Origin: Marinitoga lauensis
GTDB lineage: Bacteria; Thermotogota; Thermotogae; Petrotogales; Petrotogaceae
Reading direction: 5' to 3'
NCBI RefSeq assembly: GCF_004135675.1
Contig: NZ_QHLX01000003.1
Location: forward strand, 186,001 to 250,000
Length of the DNA stretch: 64,000 nucleotides
Numbering within the stretch: position 1 is the first letter of the stretch; the number at the start of each line of letters is the position of its first letter. A program made the translations under genes and the position numbers. This document shows positions 5,292 to 30,700 of this stretch, piece by piece. The notes below the pieces were generated by a model. It did not search any database and was not told the DNA's origin. It was given only the letters and a program-made list of their open reading frames with translations.

Positions 5292-5364
5292 TAATTGTTC
5301 ATTATATGTCCGATATATAAATAGGAAAGTTTTTAACAGGAAAGGATTCCTATGGGGTGTAATT

Positions 5365-5748
5365 ATGGGAGAAATGAACAGAATAAATGGTGATTTTTCG
5401 AGTTTCATAGATTCTCTTACTAAGGATGTAGATCTTTCAAAAAAGAGTAGCCAGAAAACAACCACTATAAAAAATAGTACAAATAAAAATCAAGAACATA
5501 GAGTGTCAAATACTAATCTTGATACAAAGAAATTATCCAAAGTAATAGAAGAAAAGTTGAACAAATTAAAAGAAATATTTAAAGGTGAAGTAAAATTTGA
5601 AGTGAAAGACGATATAAATATGATAATTGTTAAAATTGTTGATAAGGATTCGAAAAAGGTTATCAGACAAATTCCTCCAGAAACAGCTGTGAAAATGGCA
5701 GAAATGCTGGATAAGCTGGAAGGCATTTTTCTCGATGAACGTGCGTAA
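5365..5748 (+). CDS. flaG: FlaG family flagellar protein
   Basis: A 127-residue FlaG protein. The first ~60 residues are Ser/Thr/Lys/Asn-rich and probably disordered. The conserved C-terminal part holds the typical KFEVKDDINMIIVKIVD strand and KVIRQIPPETAVKMAEML. FlaG affects flagellar filament length and is normally encoded beside fliD, as here. An open frame extends upstream to 5236 but overlaps the PHP gene; ATG 5365 with GGGGTG six bases before it is the better start. Its stop is 19 bases before fliD. Confidence 0.88.
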   Translation: MGEMNRINGDFSSFIDSLTKDVDLSKKSSQKTTTIKNSTNKNQEHRVSNTNLDTKKLSKVIEEKLNKLKEIFKGEVKFEVKDDINMIIVKIVDKDSKKVIRQIPPETAVKMAEMLDKLEGIFLDERA

Positions 5749-7669: not shown

Positions 7670-8545
7670 TATGATTTTTCTTGCATTATCTTCATCTTTT
7701 ATCATTTGATTGATAAGTTCTTGCTTTGAATTAAATTTAATTTCGTCTCTAAGGAATTTTAATACTTCAACTTTTATAATTTTATTATATAAATCTCCAA
7801 AATAATCTAAAAAATAAACTTCAACCTTAGGTTCAGTTATTTTTTCATTAAAAGTAGGACGAAGTCCAATACTCATCAAACCGTAGTATTTATATGAACT
7901 ATCTTTAACTCCACCTTTTACTAAATATACGCCATAATGAGGATATATCACTTCTTCCTTATATCTTATATCGATATTAGCAGTAGGGAATCCTAATTTA
8001 AAGCCTATATGCCTATCCTCGTATACCGGCCCTTCAAGTATCCAATTTCTTCCCAATAAATTATTAGCTTCTTCAATTTTTCCTGATAGCAAAGCACGTC
8101 TAATAAATGTAGAACTTATTCTTGTTTCAGAAGTTTTTATATCTTTTAAAACTTCAACATAATAATTATTTTTATGTTGCTCTGCTAAAAGATAAGAAAC
8201 ATCACCTTTTCTTTCTTTTCCAAAAGTGAAATCTTCTCCGCATACTATGGCCTTCATTCCTTCTTTTAAAAGGAAATTTAAATACTCACCATGAGTTATA
8301 TGAATTACATTTGGTAATTCAAAAACCTCTGTTTCAAATCCCATATTTTGAATGATTTTCTCTCGTTCATATGAGGGCAAAATAACGCCTTTGAAATTTC
8401 CAAAGTATTTTGTTGCAGGATATTTCATAATATATGCTTTTGGGATTAAATTATTTTTTTTAGCAACTTCAAGTGTTTTTTTGAGAATAATTTGATGTCC
8501 TTTATGAACACCATCGAAAGTGCCTATAGTTACTGCATAGTTCAT
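7655..8545 (-). CDS. ribF: Bifunctional riboflavin kinase / FAD synthetase
   Basis: A 296-residue RibF. The N-terminal FMN adenylyltransferase domain shows TIGTFDGVHKGHQ (nucleotidyltransferase HxGH-like motif) near residue 7 and ISSTFIRRALLSGKIEEANNLLGR around 140-165. The C-terminal riboflavin kinase domain begins near 170 with GFKLGFPTANI (PTAN motif) and carries GVYLVKG. It converts riboflavin to FMN and FAD in the cytoplasm. No frame break is seen. It is downstream of the phosphofructokinase gene with a 34-base gap and probably shares its transcript. Confidence 0.94.
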   Translation of the reverse strand: MNYAVTIGTFDGVHKGHQIILKKTLEVAKKNNLIPKAYIMKYPATKYFGNFKGVILPSYEREKIIQNMGFETEVFELPNVIHITHGEYLNFLLKEGMKAIVCGEDFTFGKERKGDVSYLLAEQHKNNYYVEVLKDIKTSETRISSTFIRRALLSGKIEEANNLLGRNWILEGPVYEDRHIGFKLGFPTANIDIRYKEEVIYPHYGVYLVKGGVKDSSYKYYGLMSIGLRPTFNEKITEPKVEVYFLDYFGDLYNKIIKVEVLKFLRDEIKFNSKQELINQMIKDEDNARKIINKIR

Positions 8546-8579: not shown

Positions 8580-9602
8580 TTAATCAAAGAACAACTGAGC
8601 TAATTTATAATATTCAAATGGAACGAGCTTTTTAGTGGCCACACCATACTCAAGAGGAATAGACACAATTTGATTTCCTTTTAAAGCAACCATTCTACCA
8701 AAATCCTTTTCCTTTACAAGTTTCATGGCTTCTACACCATATCTTGTTCCGAGAATTCTATCAAATGCAGTAGGAGTGCCACCTCTTAATAAATGCCCTA
8801 ATACAACTGATCTTGTCTCATAACCTGTTTTTTGTTCAATTATTTCAGCTAAATAATGAGCAATTCCTCCAAGCCTAATGTGTCCAAAAGCATCGATAGT
8901 GGATTTATCTGCAACTACCTGTTCCAATTCTGTTGGTTTAAATCCTTCTGCTACAGCTATTATCATATATTTTTTTTCTTTCATTCTCTTATGCACATAG
9001 TTTACAATTTCATTTATTGTCATTGGAAATTCTGGTATCAATATTAAATGAGCACCAGCTGCCATACCAGCTTCTATCGTTATCCAACCAGCTTCTCTTC
9101 CCATTAATTCGACAATCATAACTCTTTGATGTGATTTTGCAGTAGAATGTAATCTGTCGATAGCATCTGCGCCAACATTTACAGCTGTATGAAAGCCAAA
9201 AGTATAATCTGTATTTGAAACATCATTGTCTATTGTTTTTGGAACACCAACAACAGGATACCCCAAACTGGATAATTTAGCTGCAACTGATAGAGTGTCA
9301 TCTCCTCCTATAGCTATTAATGCATCCATCTTCATTTCTTTAAAGTTTTTTTCAAGCAATTCTCGACTTTCTTCATCTTTAAAAGGATTAACTCTTGATG
9401 TTCCTAATATAGTTCCACCTAATATATGAATACCTTCGACATCATCATTATCCAATTTTATCATATCTTTTGTAAGCATGCCTTTCCATCCATTAAGAAT
9501 GCCATAAGTTTCATATCCTTCGCCTGCTGCATGAACAATACCCCTTATAACAGCATTTAGACCAGGACAATCTCCGCCGCCAGTTAATATTCCTACTCTC
9601 AT
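8580..9602 (-). CDS. 6-phosphofructokinase, probably pyrophosphate-dependent
   Basis: A 340-residue PfkA-family enzyme that phosphorylates fructose 6-phosphate. The N-terminus has TGGGDCPGLNAVIRG; catalytic PKTIDND is at 121-127 and MGREAGW near 166. The phosphoryl-donor site reads GGDDT (99-103) rather than GGDGS, and residue 122 is Lys rather than Gly. In this family Asp at E. coli position 104 plus Lys at 124 indicates PPi use. The sequence resembles the compact group III PFKs. PPi dependence is inferred from these two residues. No frame break. A plausible promoter lies on the minus strand at 9669-9697. Confidence 0.9.
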   Translation of the reverse strand: MRVGILTGGGDCPGLNAVIRGIVHAAGEGYETYGILNGWKGMLTKDMIKLDNDDVEGIHILGGTILGTSRVNPFKDEESRELLEKNFKEMKMDALIAIGGDDTLSVAAKLSSLGYPVVGVPKTIDNDVSNTDYTFGFHTAVNVGADAIDRLHSTAKSHQRVMIVELMGREAGWITIEAGMAAGAHLILIPEFPMTINEIVNYVHKRMKEKKYMIIAVAEGFKPTELEQVVADKSTIDAFGHIRLGGIAHYLAEIIEQKTGYETRSVVLGHLLRGGTPTAFDRILGTRYGVEAMKLVKEKDFGRMVALKGNQIVSIPLEYGVATKKLVPFEYYKLAQLFFD

Positions 9603-9668
9603 TTTTCTCCCTCCCCTATTTTTAAAATAATTTCAATAAGAATTAATAATAATATATATTTTTATTTA

Positions 9669-9697
9669 ATTATACCAGAAAAAATGTTTATTGGAAA
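9669..9697 (-). promoter_or_regulatory. Candidate sigma-A promoter of pfk-ribF
   Basis: On the minus strand a perfect TATAAT (9674-9669) lies 17 bases after TTTCCA (9697-9692), a 4/6 match to TTGACA. It is 67 bases upstream of the phosphofructokinase start and back-to-back with the cheX/atp promoter. Confidence 0.55.
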
Positions 9698-9710
9698 AAT
9701 TATTATAATG

Positions 9711-9739
9711 TTGTAATTTAGTTAAATTTATAGTATAAT
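9711..9739 (+). promoter_or_regulatory. Sigma-A promoter of the cheX-atp operon
   Basis: TTGTAA (9711-9716), a 17-base spacer, then TATAAT (9734-9739), followed by an AAGGAGG ribosome site and the cheX ATG at 9770. I see no other strong promoter before atpB, so this probably drives the ATP synthase genes. Confidence 0.7.
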
Positions 9740-9769
9740 ATTTGTGAAATATATAAAGGAGGATTTTTC

Positions 9770-10239
9770 ATGAACGTAAAAGTTATTAATTCGATATTGG
9801 ATGCTTTTTCAAAAACATTTAAGATGGCAACAAATAATATGGATATTGTAATTCAAAAGCCAGTTGTGGATAAAGGAGACAACAGATCTTATGAAGTTGT
9901 TGTTACTATAGGCTTTATAGGGGATCTTGATGGAATATTCATATGGGATTGTCTGTTGAATCAGCAAAGGTTATAGTTTCTCAAATGATGATGGGTATGC
10001 CTGTTGAAAAATTAGATGAAATGAGTTTAAGTGCTCTTGGTGAATTGGGAAATATGATTTCTGGTTCTATTGCTATGAATTTAGAAAAATTAGGGTATAA
10101 AATAAACATTACACCACCTTCAATAATGCATGGGAATAACATTATTTTTATAAAAGATGGTATATCTTTAAGATTTCCTATGAATATTGATAATAAATTT
10201 TCTGAGGAATTTTTTGTAGTTTTAAAAAGTTCAATATGA
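9770..10239 (+). CDS. cheX: CheY-P phosphatase CheX (one frame break)
   Basis: CheX removes phosphate from CheY-P during chemotaxis. After restoring one G in the run 9945-9947 the protein is 156 residues. It contains the single ELGN (ExxN) catalytic motif in the helix SALGELGNMISGS, as in CheX; CheC has two such motifs. AAAGGAGG precedes ATG 9770. Its TGA overlaps the ATG of the next gene (ATGA at 10236-10239), so it is translationally coupled to the ATP synthase operon. Confidence 0.88.
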
Positions 10240-10528
10240 AAGATCATAAGATAGATGTTAAGATTTTTGCTAATCTTAACCTGATTCTTTTTTTGCATTA
10301 ACTGTATTAGCAAATATATTTATTGGATATTTAATAGGTTATGGTTTATCTTCCTTAACAAATAATAACATTTGGAAGATAGTATTTTTATTTTTAGGTA
10401 TAATTTCTGGTTTATATAATGGCATAATGGAATTACTAAAGGAGGCGGAAAAGCAGGATAATGAACTCAGAACTAAAAAAGAAAGCAAAAGAAATAATAA
10501 TAAAAATAATAATTCTTTCGATAATTGA
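10236..10528 (+). CDS. atpZ: AtpZ-like ATP synthase accessory membrane protein (one frame break)
   Basis: A short membrane protein of 97 residues after restoring one T in the T7 run 10288-10294. It has two hydrophobic helices around LILFFALTVLANIFIGYLIGYG and WKIVFLFLGIISGLYNGIMELL, then a Lys/Asn-rich tail. The size, two-helix layout and place just before atpI match AtpZ, which helps assembly or Mg2+/Ca2+ uptake for F-type synthases. The ATG overlaps the cheX stop and the 3' end overlaps atpI by 68 bases. Confidence 0.7.
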
Positions 10529-10799
10529 ATTTTTAAGTTTGTTATATTTTTATAAAATTACTGCGTTATTTATTTTTCTTGGTAGTGTCGGAGCGATTGC
10601 GGGAATCTTAATGATAACTGAGGAAATTAAAACATTATTAACAAAACCCAAACGTAAAATTTTAAAAGGTTATATAATTAGATACGCTTTTTTTGGTATA
10701 ATCCTACTTGTTGCAGGGCTTTTTTCAAGTGAAGGATTGTTTTTAACTTTTTTAGGTTTAATGAATATGAAGTTTGCAGCACTCATTTCACCAAAATAA
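10461..10799 (+). CDS. atpI: ATP synthase subunit I (AtpI)
   Basis: A 112-residue membrane protein with four predicted helices, just before the a subunit. AtpI proteins help assemble the c ring; position and topology are the basis of the name since sequence conservation in this family is low. GGAGGCGG lies upstream of ATG 10461. The frame appears intact. Confidence 0.68.
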   Translation: MNSELKKKAKEIIIKIIILSIIEFLSLLYFYKITALFIFLGSVGAIAGILMITEEIKTLLTKPKRKILKGYIIRYAFFGIILLVAGLFSSEGLFLTFLGLMNMKFAALISPK

Positions 10800-10814
10800 C
10801 AGGGAGGAATACAT

Positions 10815-11638
10815 ATGACTCAAGGACAGAAAAAGACATTATTAACTCTTTTTTTGATTTATGTGGGGTTGGGACTAATTAATTTTATATTTTTCCCTTC
10901 AGCAGATTTAGAAGGTGTTGGGTTAAGATGGGTATATTCATTTGGAGATACTCCAACTTTTTGGAATACTATCAATCCAATGACAGTTATTATGTCAGGA
11001 GTTATTATACTGATATTAATTATTTTTGCTGCTGGAGTAAAATTTGAGTTAATACCTAATAAAAAACAGGCCTTAGTTGAATCATTGCTTGGGTATTTTT
11101 GGGAATTAGTTGAAGATGCTGTCCCAAATCCAAAATATAGAAAGCCTATTTATGTAATTGCTACAACATTATTTTTGTATATTTTGATAGCTAATCTTTT
11201 ATCTGGTATGCCAGGTATTAATGTTTCTCCAGTGAATGATGGATTAAAAATAGCTTTGTTTACAGATACGTGGTATACTCCAACATCTGATTTAAATACA
11301 AACGCAACATTTGCTGTAATGGTTCTTATTATCAGTCATATTTTTGCTGCATCGGCTAAAGGAATAGTTAATTGGCTAAAAATGTTTATTGAACCAACAC
11401 CATTGTTATTACCATTAAATTTAATTGGAGAATTGGCAAAACCTGTATCCCATTCATTGAGGTTGTTTGGTAATATTTTTGGTGGAGGAATTTTGGTTCT
11501 TATTATCAGTTATATGTTAAAGTATTTTGTTTTGCCTATATTTTTATGGGATTTTTTGGGATTTTTGTTGGATTAATACAGGCATTTGTTTTTTCTTTAT
11601 TAGCAATAGCATATATGGGGTCTTTACTTGAAGAGTAA
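10815..11638 (+). CDS. atpB: F-type ATP synthase subunit a (one frame break)
   Basis: The stator a subunit that forms the two ion half-channels. The repaired length is 274 residues; the break is at the T-run 11562-11566. The essential Arg helix is visible in LNLIGELAKPVSHSLRLFGNIFGG, and the repaired tail LIQAFVFSLLAIAYMGSLLEE is the typical last helix. ATG 10815 has AGGGAGG upstream. Confidence 0.94.
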
Positions 11639-17394: not shown

Positions 17395-19915
17395 CTATTT
17401 ATCCTTATCTGCATAAATTATATTATTCCTGATAAATGCTATTCTATAACCTTCGATATATTTTATATTATCTATGTTATACTTTGAGGTATATGAGTTT
17501 ATCAGTTCAGCATTTTCTATATTATATATCATTATTCTTTTTCCATCTGTTATTATCAATTCATTTTTACTTATATCCATCGTTTTTATTTCTTTTAATG
17601 GATGTATTATTATATTTTCTAATTTACCATTTAATATATTGTATATGAATATGTTTGATTTTATATCTTCAATTAATATTTGATAATCATTTTTTAAGAT
17701 AATTACTTTTTTTATTGGATTTAATATTGTTATTGATCTTATATACGCTTCTTTTTGTAAACTGTGTATTAATATTCTATTTCCTGGTTTTGAGTTTATA
17801 CTTCCACTTAACCCATTATACGATATTATGTATTTGTTATCATTGGATAATTTTATTGCCTGTACTATTCCATAATGACCTGTATACTTTTTTATTTCTT
17901 TTTTGGCTTTATAATCATATTTTACTATTTCATAATTTTTATTCCATAATATATGTATTCTCCATCAAAATCTGCTATTTTCTGTATTTTTTTATCTTTA
18001 TACAATAATTTTCCTGTGTTTATATTATATAGTTCAATTGCTCCATTTTCACATGAAATAAATAATTTATCTTTTATTATTTTTATTTTTGACAGATAAT
18101 CTTCTAACTCTTTTTTAAAAATTATTTGTCCTTCTTTTTTTATTGTTAATTCTGCATATTCATTTTCTATTATTTCATATCCATTTTGTATATTATAATA
18201 TTTTATATTTTCTTCATATTTTTTATATTCTTTTAAATTTATATTTTTATAATCAACATCTTTTCTTTTTGATTTTTCATTATCTTCTAAAAGATAGAAA
18301 TTTATATAATCATCATCACTTTTTATGAGATATTTTTCTGTCAAAATTACTTTGTTTTTCACAGGATCAAATCCTGCATTTTTTTCATATTCTACTTTAA
18401 AATCTTTTAAATTTATTTTTCGAATTATTCCTTTTTCATATAATATATATAATGCCTGTATTTTTTTATTTGTTGATATATCATGTATATATTCATTATT
18501 ATTAATATTTTTTATAATTTTTAAAGTGTTTTTTTCCAATATACTTAATTCATCCATTCCAGAAAGGATTATTATATATTTTTCTGTTTCAACAATTTTT
18601 CTAATAGGTTCATCTGATATTTTTATAATTTTATTTTCTGTTATTATATTTCCATCTGTTGTTCCATATATTATATTCCCATCTATTTCTTTTATTGTAG
18701 AAATATATTTATTATAATCCATTGTTTTTATGTGTTTCCCGGTATATAAATTATATTTTCTTATTTCTTTTCCATTAATTAAATATATTATCCCCTTTTT
18801 TTCAAAAATATAGCCCAGGCTTATATTTTTCATTTCATTATCAATTTTATATAACTTTGTTTTTTTCTGTAAATCATACAAATTCAGATTTAATATACCA
18901 CTATTCTTTGTTAATAAATAATCTTTTGAAATTGCAACAAAGCTACCATTATACAAATTTAATTTATTTTCTTTTAAATTGTATATTGATGTGTGTGAAT
19001 ATATATTACTATTTATCTTATTCAATATAATATTATTATTTGTATCAACAAAAAAGTTCCAGTTATATACATTTTTTATTTTTATCCATTTTTTAAAATC
19101 TATATTTAAATTATTTATTTTTTTGCCTTTGAAAAATTCAAAAAAATTTTCCATATAATTAAATTCTATATTTTCAAATTTTAACCATTGTATCCATTTA
19201 ATCATATATGGCATTACATACTCTTTAAATTGATTTTCATCCATTTTTTGTATATTCACATAAAAATTTTTGAAATTATCTATTCCATAATGTTCAATAA
19301 AAAAACCTATAAAAGATGCTCCAAATGTATATCCATTTTTCCAGTTTAAAAATATTTTTTATATAACTCATCATAAGTCAGATTTCTATATTCTGAAGAG
19401 TATTTAAGCATATATTTAGCATAAAAGTGATATTTTGAGCTTAAATCGAGACCATCATTAATATATTTGAACCAATTTGCAAGGCCTTCTTTAAAAAAGG
19501 AATTTTCTCCTTTTAAAATATACGAATCAATAGCATGTACAATTTCATGTTTTAAATTAACAGGCGTTCCAAAAATTACCTTATTATTCCAGAATCCACC
19601 GGCTTGATATTCTGATAATCCTATTATTTCTTTTCTTGTATCAAATAAAATTATAGGAATTTTTTTATTGAATATTTTTATTTTAAAAACCTTTATCAAA
19701 CTATCTATTTCCTTTTGATAATATGATGCGATTTCAACGATATAAGGAGCAAAATTAGTGTTTTTCTCAAAATATATTTTTAAATTTTTAATATAATATT
19801 TTGCATAATTATTTCTAGCATAATTATATATAAAATCTATTTTTTGCTTATCAATTTTTATACAAAAACTTATAGTAATAAGAATAATATATAATATTAT
19901 AAAAATTCTTTTCAT
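17395..19915 (-). CDS. Secreted gluzincin metallopeptidase with beta-propeller, copy 1 (two frame breaks)
   Basis: About 840 residues after repair of two losses (A-run 19348-19352 and C-run 17944-17945). I chose ATG 19915 (MKRIFIILY) because AAAAGGAG lies just upstream. An N-terminal signal helix is followed by a zinc-protease domain with HEIVHAID near residue 140 and downstream FFKEGLANWFKY supplying the third ligand Glu; this HExxH...EGLA layout fits the Peptidase_MA-like gluzincins. The rest is a long run of WD40/PQQ-like strands ('GKHIKTMDY', 'NGAIELYNINTGKLLY', 'TGHYGIVQAIKLSNDNKYI'), probably a propeller. Substrate unknown; probably acts outside the inner membrane. It is the downstream member of a tandem pair with 20014-22579. 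Confidence 0.75.
17520..18745 (-). repeat. Homogenised duplicate segment, copy 1
   Basis: Nearly identical to 20142-21367. Identity ends abruptly at 18745 on the 5' side of the gene (right after GGTAT), is essentially complete over 18085-18745, and decays gradually toward the 3' end of the gene. Confidence 0.9.
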
Positions 19916-20013
19916 AAAAAATCTCCTTTTAAAAATCATACCGTCTTCAACAGCTCATATTTTAATTTTATAAGTTTACAAAAATAAATTTAAAATTCTA
20001 AAATCTTTTTATG

Positions 20014-22579
20014 CTATCTACTTTCCTCACAAATATAAATTATATTATTACTAATAAATGCTATTTTATTATCTTCTATATATTTTATATTGTCTATGTT
20101 ATACTCTGAGAAATATGATTTCATCAGTTCACCATTTTCTATATTATATATCATTATTCTTTTTCCATCTGTTATTATCAATTCATTTTTATTTATATCC
20201 ATCGTTTTTATTTCTTTTAATGGATGTATTATTATATTTTCTAGTTTACCATTTAGAATATTGTATATAAATATATTTGATTTTATATCTTCAATTAATA
20301 TTTGATAATCATTTTTTAAGATAATTACTTTTTTATTGGATTTAATATTGTTATTGATCTTATATACGTTTCTTTTTGCAAACTGTGTATTAATATTCTA
20401 TTTCCTGGTTTTGAGTTTATACTTCCACTTAACCCATTATACGATATTATGTATTTGTTATCATTGGATAATTTTATTGCTTGTACTATTCCATAATGAC
20501 CTGTATACTTTTTTGTTTCTTTTTTGGCTTTATAATCATATTTTACTATTTCATAATTTTTATTCCCATAATATATGTATTCTCCATCAAAATCTGCTAT
20601 TTTCTGTATTTTTTTATCTTTATACAATAATTTTCCTGTGTTTATATTATATAGTTCAATTGCTCCATTTTCACATGAAATAAATAATTTATCTTTAATT
20701 ATTTTTATTTTCGACAGATAATCTTCTAACTCTTTTTTAAAAATTATTTGTCCTTCTTTTTTTATTGTTAATTCTGCATATTCATTTTCTATTATTTCAT
20801 ATCCATTTTGTATATTATAATATTTTATATTTTCTTCATATTTTTTATATTCTTTTAAATTTATATTTTTATAATCAACATCTTTTCTTTTTGATTTTTC
20901 ATTATCTTCTAAAAGATAGAAATTTATATAATCATCATCACTTTTTATGAGATATTTTTCTGTCAAAATTACTTTGTTTTTCACAGGATCAAATCCTGCA
21001 TTTTTTTCATATTCTACTTTAAAATCTTTTAAATTTATTTTTCGAATTATTCCTTTTTCATATAATATATATAATGCCTGTATTTTTTTATTTGTTGATA
21101 TATCATGTATATATTCATTATTATTAATATTTTTTATAATTTTTAAAGTGTTTTTTTCCAATATACTTAATTCATCCATTCCAGAAAGGATTATTATATA
21201 TTTTTCTGTTTCAACAATTTTTCTAATAGGTTCATCTGATATTTTTATAATTTTATTTTCTGTTATTATATTTCCATCTGTTGTTCCATATATTATATTC
21301 CCATCTATTTCTTTTATTGTAGAAATATATTTATTATAATCCATTGTTTTTATGTGTTTCCCGGTATCAATACTGTATTCTTTAATTTCATTTATTTTTT
21401 CTCCATTTACTACTATTAATTTTTTTTCATTTTCTAATATAAATATAGATGGAATTATATATTTATAATTTATATTTAATTTTATCTTTTTATTTGTGTT
21501 ATTTCTATCAAAAATATAAAATGAATTATAATCTTCAAATTTTACTATATAATTTTTTGAAACTGCTAAAGGAATTGAATCATAAATCTCTATCTTTTTA
21601 TTATTTAAATAATATATGAAACCACTTCTTGTAGAATAATCTAAATTAAAAATCAATGTATTTAGCTGCGAATTAAAATAAAAATTATTTGTAATATTTT
21701 TTATTGAATATAATTTTTTTAGTTCCATGGTATCCGTAAAATTATGATTATAGTATTTAAAAATCATTTTATAGTAATAATTACCTTCAAAATATGTCTC
21801 TCCCAGCCATTTAAGCCAGTTTTTAGCATATTCTTTTAATTTTTCCTCCAGCATTTTTTCTGAAAGGATTCCAGATTCCTGATATAATTTCTTTAGTTCA
21901 TTATAACCATACTTTTTTGTAATAAAATCAAAAAATGAAATACCAAAAGTATAACCATTATTATAATTAAAGAAAATCTTTTTAAACTTCTCATTAAACG
22001 TCAAATCTTTAAATTCGTCAGAATCTATTATTATTTTTTTATTATTTTATTATAACTATTTATAACATATGGATTATCATACCATCTAAACCAACTTGCA
22101 AAAGCTTCATCTATATATGGAACTCCACTTTTACCCCATAATATACCACATAAACCATGAACTATTTCATGCGGAACAGCCCATATGGTTGAAAAAATAA
22201 AGGTTTTAATTTTATCCTTATCCATTATCGCTGTAGTAAATGACGCATTCTTGTTAGAAAATGCCAATTTATCTGCATCATTATTAATAATGACAATAAC
22301 AATTTTTTCTGGGATTTCTTTTTCTTTAAATACTTTAATAAAATAATCTACCTCATCCTGAAATAATTTTGCATAAACAGCAATATGTTTTCTAAATGGA
22401 GAATCTTTTTCAAAATAAATCTCTAGATTTTGTGTTTCATATTTAACATAATATTTTTGTGCATAATCATATAATGAATGCAATTTATTTTTATCGATTT
22501 TTACATATCCATATAGTATATTACCAAATAAGATTATAATCAGTAAAAACAAAATTTTTAAGTATTTCAAAACATCCAC
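20014..22579 (-). CDS. Secreted gluzincin metallopeptidase with beta-propeller, copy 2 (two frame breaks)
   Basis: Paralogue of the next gene, about 855 residues after repair (T-run 22034-22040 and T-run 20329-20334). It has an N-terminal hydrophobic signal; ATG 22579 or TTG 22570 could start it, the latter better spaced from GGGGTGG. The zinc site HEIVHGLCG and downstream YIDEAFASWFRWYDNP are conserved. The protease domain and first propeller strands differ clearly from copy 1, whereas the segment below 21367 is almost identical to it. No domain links it to a known substrate; a surface-protein processing role is only a guess. Confidence 0.75.
20142..21367 (-). repeat. Homogenised duplicate segment, copy 2
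   Basis: Partner of 17520-18745. Among the few differences are two homopolymer-length changes (CCC at 20565-20567 against CC at 17944-17945; T6 at 20329-20334 against T7 at 17707-17713), each of which breaks the frame of one copy only. Confidence 0.9.
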
Positions 22580-22951
22580 CCCTTTCCCTTTTATGAATTA
22601 AAAATTTTAATTATATTACAATTAAAAAAAATACATATATTGTGAATTTTATAACTTTATAAGTCGCAAATTATAAATGATTTATATTTTTCGTTATAAT
22701 AGACATACTAAAAAATTTTTTTACTTATTTTATTCAAAATAATTTTATCAAAAAAACAGCAACATTAACGTAAATTTGTGGTAAATTTCTCTTTTCGTAA
22801 ATCTAATAAATTTACACCTTTATTATATCAACTGATATATTTTTATTGTTAAATTTTAGTTTATAGAAAGCTTTATATTATCAATTTCTTCGATGTTAAT
22901 ATATTTTTATATAGTAAATATTTTGAAATTTTTTACTAATCTAATACAAAT
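22580..22951. other. AT-rich intergenic region with GTAAATTT repeats
   Basis: There is no convincing gene in this ~370-bp stretch. It must hold the promoter of the metallopeptidase pair (minus strand), but I see no clear -35/-10 pair. It contains three direct copies of GTAAAT(TT) at 22770, 22781 and 22797 and one inverted copy at 22808-22815. Confidence 0.5.
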
Positions 22952-22976
22952 AAGGGACCTGCAAAACAGGTCCCTT
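22952..22976 (-). terminator. Terminator of the rpoBC operon
   Basis: A perfect 10-bp stem (22952-22961 with 22967-22976) around CAAAA, 31 bases past the rpoC stop on the minus strand, followed by a T-rich stretch. Confidence 0.85.
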
Positions 22977-23007
22977 AGGTTATTTACTATTTACTATTTA
23001 TTTTTTA

Positions 23008-27741
<4,734 letters not shown>

Positions 27742-27759
27742 TTACCCTCCTTGAGGGAT

Positions 27760-30700
27760 TTATAATTTATCTACATCTAATTCATTACCGTCTTCATCAA
27801 ACAAACGAACATCTAACATTAACCCTGTAATTCTTTAACTAAAACTTTGAAACTTTCAGGAATACCAGGATCTGGTAAATTCTTTCCATTTAATATGGCT
27901 TTATATACTTCATTTCTACCTTTAATATCATCTGATTTATATGTTAGCATTTCTGTTAATGTATGCGCAGCACCATAAGCTTCTAATGCCCAAACTTCCA
28001 TTTCACCGAATCTTTGACCACCAAAATGTGCTTTACCACCCAATGGCTGTTGGTGAATTAATGAGTATGGACCTGTAGAACGTGCGTGCATTTTATCTTT
28101 TGCAATGTGAACCAATCTTAACATATACATGTATCCAATAGCAATTGGATAATCAAAAGGTTCACCTGTTCTACCGTCTCTTAACACGATTTTTCCACTT
28201 TCAACTTCTGGAGTGTCTCCTAAATCAAGTCCATATTCTTTACGAACTTTATCCAATTCATCCATTCTATTATTTTTTCTTGCTTCATATAATGCTTTCA
28301 TAATTTCTTTTTCTTTTGCACCATCAAATATAGGAGTAGCAAAATGTTTTCCTGTTAATTTTGCTAACCAACCAAGATGCATTTCCAATACCTGCCCAAG
28401 GTTCATACGTGAAGGAACACCTAAAGGACTAAGTATCATTTCAATTGGTTTTCCATTTGGTAAGAAAGGCATATCTTCTTTTCTTAAAATATTTGAAACA
28501 ACACCTTTATTACCGTGCCTACCAGCTAATTTATCTCCAACGTTTAACGTTTTCTTTGAAGCAATATATACTTTAACATATTGATTTACACCAGTTTCAA
28601 GGTCAGGAATATCTTTTCTTGTATATACTTTTACATCAATAACTCTACCTTCAATTCCATGAGGAACAGTTAATGAAGTATCTTTAACGTCTTTACCTCT
28701 ATCTCCAAAAACTGATCTAATTAATTTTTCTTCTGGAGATGTTTCTGATTCACCTCTTGGAGTTACTTTACCAACTAAAATATCTCCTGATGTAACGTAA
28801 GCGCCAACTCTAACTATACCATGTTCATCAAGATTTCTTAATGATTCTTTTTTTACATTTGGAATATCTGCTGTAATTTCTTCAGGACCTAATTGCGTAT
28901 CCATAGCTTTGGTTTCATATACTTCAATATGTAATGAGGTAAATGTATCTCTTTCGAGCAATTCTTCATTTACAAGTATAGCATCTTCAAAATTATAACC
29001 TTCCCATGGCATAAATGCTACAAGTACATTTTTACCCAATGCTAATTCTCCCATATCTATTGCCGGTCCATCAGCAAGTGGAGAACCTTTTTCTACAATT
29101 TCACCTATTTCAACAATAGGTCTTTGATTTATAGTCGTATCCTGGTTTGATCTAATAAATTTCCATAATGTATATTTATCCTGAACTGGATTTCCATAAT
29201 TATCCAATATATCTTTTCCATTTTCATCTATTCTATTAATTATAATTGTTTTTGCATCAACATAGGATACTCTACCTCTATGTTTTGCCTTGATTACATA
29301 TCCAGAGTCTCTAGCAGCTAACCATTCAACACCAGTTCCTACAAAAGGAGCTTCTGTAATCATTAATGGAACAGCCTGCCTTTGCATGTTAGAACCCATC
29401 AAAGCACGATTAGCATCATCGTGTTCAAGGAATGGGATTAATGAAGTTGAAACACTAACAATCTGTTTTGGTGTAACAGCAATAAATTCAACATCTTCCC
29501 TATGAACATATGTAACCTTACCAGCATGTCTGATTTCAACGTATTCTGCTTTAATCATTCCATTTTCATCTATTTCAACAGAAGCAGGAGCAATAATTTT
29601 TTCTTCCTCCTGATCTGCAGTTAGCCAATAGGCTCCCTTTTCATATAGAACTTTCCCGTTTTTAACCCTATAATATGGTGTTTCTAAGAAACCAAACTCA
29701 TCAACTCTTGCCAATATTGCCAAAGAAGTAATCAAACCTATATTTGCTCCTTCTGGTGTTTCAATTGGACACATTCTTCCGTAGTGTGAATGATGAACAT
29801 CACGAACCTCGAATTTTGCATGTTCTCTTTTTAGCCCACCAGGTCCAATAGCAGATAATCTTCTTTTATGAGTCAATTCAGACAATGGATTAACCTGATC
29901 CATAAATTGAGAAAGTTGACTTGTTGCAAAAAACTGATTGATAGTTGTCATTATTGCTCTTGAATTTATCAAAGAATTTGGATTTAATTTTTGAATATTT
30001 GGTATGATACTCAATTTTTCACTTAGAATAGGCAGCATTTTAGAGAATGATCTTTCGAATTCAATTTGCATCAATTCTCCAACTGACCTAACACGTTTAT
30101 TACCTAAATGATCTCTTGTATCAAGTAATTCTGGATTTTCTTTCATTTCTAATAAATGTCTTGAAGCTAACACGAGATCAAGTTTGGTTAATATTCTCTC
30201 CTCTTTATGAGGATATTCAATATCTTCACCCTTTTCAATTATTTTTCCTTCGACTTCAATTAAATATTTTTTATAAACATCTTCCATTCTATTAACTATT
30301 TTTTTCCTACCAATCATTGAGAAGTCGAAAGTATTCGGGTTAAAATATAAATTATTAATATAATCAGTTGCAATATTTACTCTAGGAATTTCACCAGGTC
30401 TCAATTTTTTGAATAATTCTTTATAAGCATCTTCGGGAGTTAGGATAGAATCTTCGGATTCATAACTTTTTTTAAACAGGTCTAACGTATTTTGAGCAAC
30501 AATATGAGCTACTGTTATTTCTGAAACTCCTAATTCAAGCAATTCATCAACAATTTTTTCTGTTAATCTAACACCTCTATATGTTTTTGTATCTTTATAT
30601 AAATCTGAGCTTTCTGGAACTGCTATATCTGAAAGTATTGTTATATTTTTTTCCAGATATTCAGTCAAATCATAATTTAAATTGATTTTATGAGGATATA

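Follow-up and report, generated by a model that had tools for sequence, protein, structure and literature searches.

Partial concerted evolution of two tandem peptidase-propeller genes in Marinitoga lauensis and a congener, probably by gene conversion

Two adjacent genes of Marinitoga lauensis encode exported peptidase-like proteins whose protease halves are strongly diverged and whose 3' halves are nearly the same. Very probably, gene conversion has led to partial concerted evolution of the pair, and has done so anew in each of two lineages, with 5' edges that almost coincide. The genes lie on the minus strand of the 64,000-nucleotide stretch of DNA analysed here (the window), gene A at 17395-19915 and gene B at 20014-22579; B possibly starts with a TTG at 22570, as it does in the congener G003. 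In the following, G000 denotes the genome of the window, and A' and B' denote the counterparts of A and B in G003. Each protein has a hydrophobic N-terminal signal-like segment, followed by a gluzincin-like half and then by a strand-rich, propeller-like half that is the same in both. The HExxH motif and a downstream Glu ligand are present in A (HEIVH...KEGLANW) and in B (HEIVHGLCG...DEAFASW), the third ligand being assigned from its spacing.

How is the similarity between A and B distributed? The DNA of the protease halves is only about 55-60% identical (roughly 50-66% in sliding windows), and that of the 3' halves is 97% identical. BLASTN of A against B gives a single strong block of 1360 bp with 97.4% identity and essentially nothing upstream of it. 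The block covers 17413-18771 in A and 20035-21393 in B, both on the minus strand, and decays toward the 3' end. Within it lies the longest exact match between the genes, 655 bp at 18091-18745 in A and 20713-21367 in B (minus strand). Its 5' edge is sharp, with 8 mismatches in the 20 positions just before it and none in the 100 positions just after. The homologous half has 38 mismatches; were they evenly spread, the probability of finding none in the first 655 bp would be about 8e-12. Toward the stop codon the identity decreases from 98.7% to 98.5%, 94% and finally 85% (differences of 1.3, 1.5, 6 and 14.9%). The original prediction had described tandem paralogues with a signal peptide, a gluzincin-like motif, a sharp edge at 18745/21367 and more than 600 bp of near-identity, and all of this holds, the near-identity being exact over the 655 bp.

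Relatives of A and B were searched for in 61 genomes. They are encoded by the genome of the window and four congeners, plus one marginal match outside the family, and both genes are present in two genomes only, G000 and G003. A class-wide profile search gave, outside the genus, only one marginal match (G014, E 7e-4). A scan of the genome contig collection with B and with an alignment found no relatives, and there was no match in the plasmid and phage collections. The genome of G003 is a single contig of 2.44 Mb, in which both genes are intact and in tandem (L027:5600-8152 and 8591-11140). Here A' and B' share an identical block of 1314 bp that reaches exactly to the stop codon, while their 5' halves differ by about 45%, so that the sliding identity has the same shape as between A and B. 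The 3' halves of G000 and G003 differ from each other by about 13%. Comparison of the locus in relatives, proposed beforehand as a check, thus brought to light a second homogenised pair with its own species-specific sequence.

The two halves of the genes tell different histories. In the tree of the 5' halves, B and B' are separated from A, A' and the genes of G001 and G004 with support 100/100, and a tree joining A and B within the genome of the window is rejected (p-AU 5e-68). In the tree of the 3' halves, A groups with B (98/99), and A' with B' and the G001 gene (100/100). Synonymous sites show the same conflict. The dS of paralogues is about 1.1 in the 5' halves, and in the 3' halves it is 0.000 in G003 and 0.009, then 0.091, in G000. 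For comparison, the dS of orthologues is 0.33 in the 3' halves, 0.55 in rpoC and 0.52 in atpD. Only in the 3' part does a gene resemble its paralogue in the same genome more closely than its orthologue in the other, at synonymous sites too. The half-gene trees and the dS within and between genomes indicate that in both lineages homogenisation is younger than the split of the species. The conflicting trees, the contrast between dS near 0 and saturation, and the independent repeat in a second species all bear out gene conversion, which had been one of the two readings suggested at first; the proposed sliding-identity and synonymous comparisons likewise revealed a divergence that is far from uniform along the genes.

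Could strong purifying selection or codon constraint alone keep the propeller halves alike, with no exchange at all? The propeller half is indeed constrained (dN/dS about 0.3 against G003). Yet this explanation can hardly be credited, since it is refuted by synonymous sites, which are identical within a genome and diverged at a dS of 0.33 between genomes. Another explanation is a recent duplication of the whole gene, after which a foreign protease half replaced the 5' half of the second copy. It would likewise leave the 3' halves identical and the edge sharp, and in G003 the segment preceding B', which comprises a radical-SAM gene tail and a precursor, duplicates the one preceding A' at 95% identity. 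But both 5' halves are orthologous across the species (100/100), and a remnant of the radical-SAM tail between the genes is also common to both, so the pair must predate the species split. Moreover, one recent event cannot yield different identical blocks in two species. Recent duplication is therefore very unlikely, and the state of window A at the edge, described next, also counts against it.

The 5' edges in G000 and G003 are only 35 bp apart in the alignment. There are 11 sites in these 35 bp which separate A' from B', and window A is B-type at 9 of them; at the remaining 2, window A again equals window B. The A genes of three congeners are A-type at the edge. From the B-type bases in A it follows that the last tract in the window was copied from B into A and extended 35 bp past the edge of G003, with A as recipient and B as donor at this edge. 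Where does the edge lie in the protein? In a low-confidence model of a 559-residue B fragment, the strands set in at about residue 108, where the strand-rich region begins, and the edge falls at about residue 213. According to this model, the edge is inside the propeller-like region, about 100 residues past its start, and off the junction of protease and propeller, so that the first roughly 100 residues of the strand-rich region would have diverged along with the protease. The idea of a module swap that keeps one propeller is thus right in that the 3' propeller part is homogenised, and wrong about the border, which in this model is not a domain junction. Most plausibly, the edge marks where usable homology stops rather than the boundary of a functional module. 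An edge that is shared but shifted by a few dozen bases would be expected if exchange stops where similarity becomes too low.

The mechanism we propose is as follows. A and B would be old tandem paralogues, the 3' halves of which are kept alike by recurrent gene conversion, presumably through RecA-type homologous recombination. The 5' halves would have diverged past the similarity that recombination requires, and the sharp 5' edge would then be the border between recombinable and non-recombinable sequence. Such a border would be inherited, which would place it at nearly the same position in two species. The latest tract in the window would have been copied from B into A over at least 655 bp, and the graded 3' part would be left by older or shorter events. 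The two independent homogenisations, the donor direction at the edge and the conserved edge itself are established by the comparisons above.

The gradual drift toward the 3' end needs a separate account. It was rightly noticed in the window, where identity falls from the tract to the stop codon; it is not a general property of the pair, for in G003 the identical block continues as far as the stop. Over the final 168 bp, A and B differ from their G003 orthologues by 23-29% (identity about 71-77%). Since orthologues diverge there too, the drift is in part that of a generally faster-evolving end. The copies in G003 are identical up to the stop codon, so the remainder of the rise must come from older or fewer exchanges in the window.

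An assembly artefact, in which the identical block was copied or collapsed in assembly or polishing, had been named in advance as one of two outcomes that would refute the reading. The assembly of the window is indeed unpolished and partly redundant. A and B are each interrupted by two 1-bp deletions, and the frame-breaking indels against G003 amount to 0.5-1.1 per kb across rpoC, the atp genes, A and B alike. One contig of 8.4 kb in G000 (C14, L018) repeats 20550-28628 of the window with 87 gaps and only 4 mismatches, and it starts inside the A/B repeat. Likewise, contig C8 ends in sequence that recurs at the start of C7 (99.8%, no mismatches). Many 1-bp indels, redundant contigs and a contig that begins within the repeat are what one would cite in favour of an artefact, and short-read polishing could have removed a few differences between A and B. 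Three observations speak against it. The same architecture is found in the single-contig G003, with species-specific sequence; the window retains 38 differences between A and B 3' of the tract; and C14 independently joins the tract to the flank that is unique to B, so the indel errors do not explain the tract. Taken together, mis-assembly is highly improbable.

The same data settle two further points. C14 reads through the frameshift in the protease half of B (L018:1107-2024), and the indel density in A and B equals that in rpoC and the atp genes. Thus the broken frames are sequencing or assembly errors, and a reading of A and B as pseudogenes was rejected. C14 was also considered as a third genomic copy and rejected as a redundant contig. 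The proposed look for further propeller copies elsewhere leads to a third peptidase-propeller paralogue, on contig C17. This paralogue is diverged (about 39% identical) and single-copy, at C17:3844-5517 (L012) in G000 and at L031:3482-6076 and L030:5299-7884 in congeners. In G000 and G003 its neighbours on the two sides are fructose-bisphosphate aldolase and a YigZ-like gene; in G002 it lies elsewhere, not linked to a peptide cluster.

Are the two proteins still in use, and has the protease part been diversified, as the prediction supposed? Against G003, the protease halves of A and B have dN/dS of about 0.3-0.4. These values, calculated from the sequences, indicate that both genes are kept under purifying selection in the genome of the window and, being so constrained, are probably still used. 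The protease halves are ordinary diverging orthologues, and their diversification finds no support. As for the family, A and B have no match to a curated peptidase family in Pfam or NCBIfam, and a PDB sequence search with full-length and protease-half profiles gave nothing informative. A 193-residue model (pLDDT 63) has many gluzincins among its best Foldseek matches (LTA4H, APN, tricorn F3), none of them below E 0.14. The propeller half has many WD40-type Pfam matches at 1e-8 to 1e-3, every one under the curated cut-off, and its fold model is poor (pLDDT 44) and serves for strand positions only. The proteins thus appear to form a peptidase family that curated models do not cover and that is apparently restricted to the genus.

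The neighbourhood in G003 gives a hint of their role. Between atpC and rpoC there are, in order, a radical-SAM/SPASM maturase, two short Cys-containing ORFs, A', a second, duplicated radical-SAM tail accompanied by another short ORF, B', an ABC-2 permease and an ABC ATPase. The maturase (L027:3720-5039) matches PF04055 and PF13186 above cut-off; its best curated match is the PapB ranthipeptide maturase NF047865 with 215.9 bits, under the 340-bit cut-off. The short ORFs (L027:5079-5243, 5347-5547 and 8319-8528) are candidate RiPP precursors. Such ORFs, 54-69 aa long and homologous to each other, number three in G003 and one each in G004 and G001, where they precede A; the three of G003 have about 45 initial residues in common, with a shared leader MSFKIIxLNEPGILSDSSDL..., and different tails. 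The arrangement in congeners appears to be a RiPP-like cluster, with peptide maturation as its putative function. The chances seem even that the exported zinc peptidases process or degrade a radical-SAM-modified peptide, presumably outside the cytoplasm, to which their motif, signal segment and neighbourhood point. The window locus has lost the maturase, precursors and exporter, and no precursor gene was found in G000. What it keeps are a 45-bp remnant of the radical-SAM gene tail between B and A (19955-19999, minus strand; 89% to L027:4928-4972 of G003) and a former upstream region (22589-22864, minus strand; 80%), whose counterpart in G003 and G006 separates atpC from the radical-SAM gene and which here runs straight into B. 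Perhaps A and B act on peptides from other radical-SAM/exporter clusters of G000.

Note that in the direction of transcription B comes before A in the window and A before B in G003, and that the window pair is inverted relative to atpC and rpoC in comparison with G003. These differences of order and orientation need further events beyond conversion. One possibility is a programmed exchange of cassettes, in which protease halves are swapped between homologous arms, with the radical-SAM tail and precursor upstream and the propeller downstream, so as to vary the specificity of the peptidase. G003 has homologous arms on both sides, the two 5' halves stand in opposite order in G000 and G003 with the radical-SAM tail still between the genes, and either protease of G003 is accompanied by a precursor of its own, distinct in its C-terminal tail. 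However, only two arrangements are seen, the genomes searched contain no additional silent cassettes, no recombinase or site was found, and the 5' halves evolve as normal orthologues, all of which makes such a programme distinctly improbable. In a wider form of the idea, the tandem pair would work as a recombining constant/variable system, with a homogenised propeller and exchangeable protease halves matched to precursor tails, whose arms let the halves swap places (B-A here, A-B in G003). We regard this as unlikely; if it were true, the propeller would be kept uniform by the need of both enzymes to recognise one conserved leader (or exporter).

Recurrent gene conversion, the preferred explanation for A and B, may also have counterparts nearby and at a distance. 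G001 has a single gene with an A-type 5' half (about 98% to A'), directly after the stop codon of which comes the exporter permease, as at B' of G003 and unlike A'. Judged by its sequence, it would be what a crossover between two 3' halves leaves behind; alternatively, it may represent a single-copy ancestral state. G006 has the same flanks, with contig breaks in the radical-SAM tail and in the last 120 bp of the propeller; repeats cause breaks of this kind in short-read assemblies. The ABC-2 permease and ATPase pair occurs at two distant loci (L027:11137-12683 and L065:7482-9028 in G003; L066 and L067 in G002; L062 and L063 in G000). The two copies are 98.9% identical in G003 and 98.4% in G002, and identity between species is 88-92%; the copies of G000 are 96.6% identical, with no resolved pairing apart from G006. 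Because the exporter genes also show this within-genome excess, homogenisation extends beyond the tandem pair, and the exporter genes of dispersed radical-SAM clusters seem to undergo concerted evolution over long distances. Beside the radical-SAM clusters there recur long ORFs with the motif TTTT(T)ILxELxRxELxxLY and the ending YYSFED[DN]ERxLxDxIIExF (L065, L066, L067, L028, L062, L063), which are possibly regulators of these clusters.

What does the case add to what is known? It offers a clean, base-resolved example of partial concerted evolution in a bacterium, independent in two species and with a conserved tract edge. Since the two species share the edge, the case can test what sets the edges of conversion, a divergence barrier or selection. 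Another outcome is a peptidase family, as yet uncharacterised, that is linked to radical-SAM peptide clusters with homogenised, shared exporter genes. In the literature searched, no paper dealt with Marinitoga together with radical SAM or RiPP, or with peptidase or propeller. Gene conversion of bacterial paralogues and concerted evolution in biosynthetic clusters are already known, and what is new is an unusually clear case with a conserved edge.

Metalloproteases are known in RiPP maturation, such as the M1 enzyme AplP and the M61 enzyme MfuP (PMC10885120). Like A and B, they are HExxH...E gluzincin-type peptidases encoded beside RiPP maturation genes. In contrast, A and B have no detectable sequence homology to them and carry a signal segment of their own and a C-terminal propeller-like half, and the maturase adjoining their relatives is of the radical-SAM/SPASM type, not a lanthipeptide synthetase. 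Maturases of the PapB type (NF047865), the sub-threshold best match of the G003 enzyme, are the nearest curated kind; the corresponding gene is found in congeners and absent from the window locus. Concerted evolution of domains has been described in PKS/NRPS biosynthetic gene clusters (PMC4256081), where sequences of a cluster group by genome through internal recombination and leave the same tree signature as A and B; here the setting is an apparent RiPP cluster, with a homogenised propeller-like peptidase half and dispersed exporter cassettes. Multiple gene conversion has been reported between bacterial release-factor genes (PMC4530459). Part of that paralogous pair is homogenised within genomes and the rest is divergent, as in A and B, while A and B differ in being tandem, apparently genus-restricted exported peptidases with a base-level edge common to two species.
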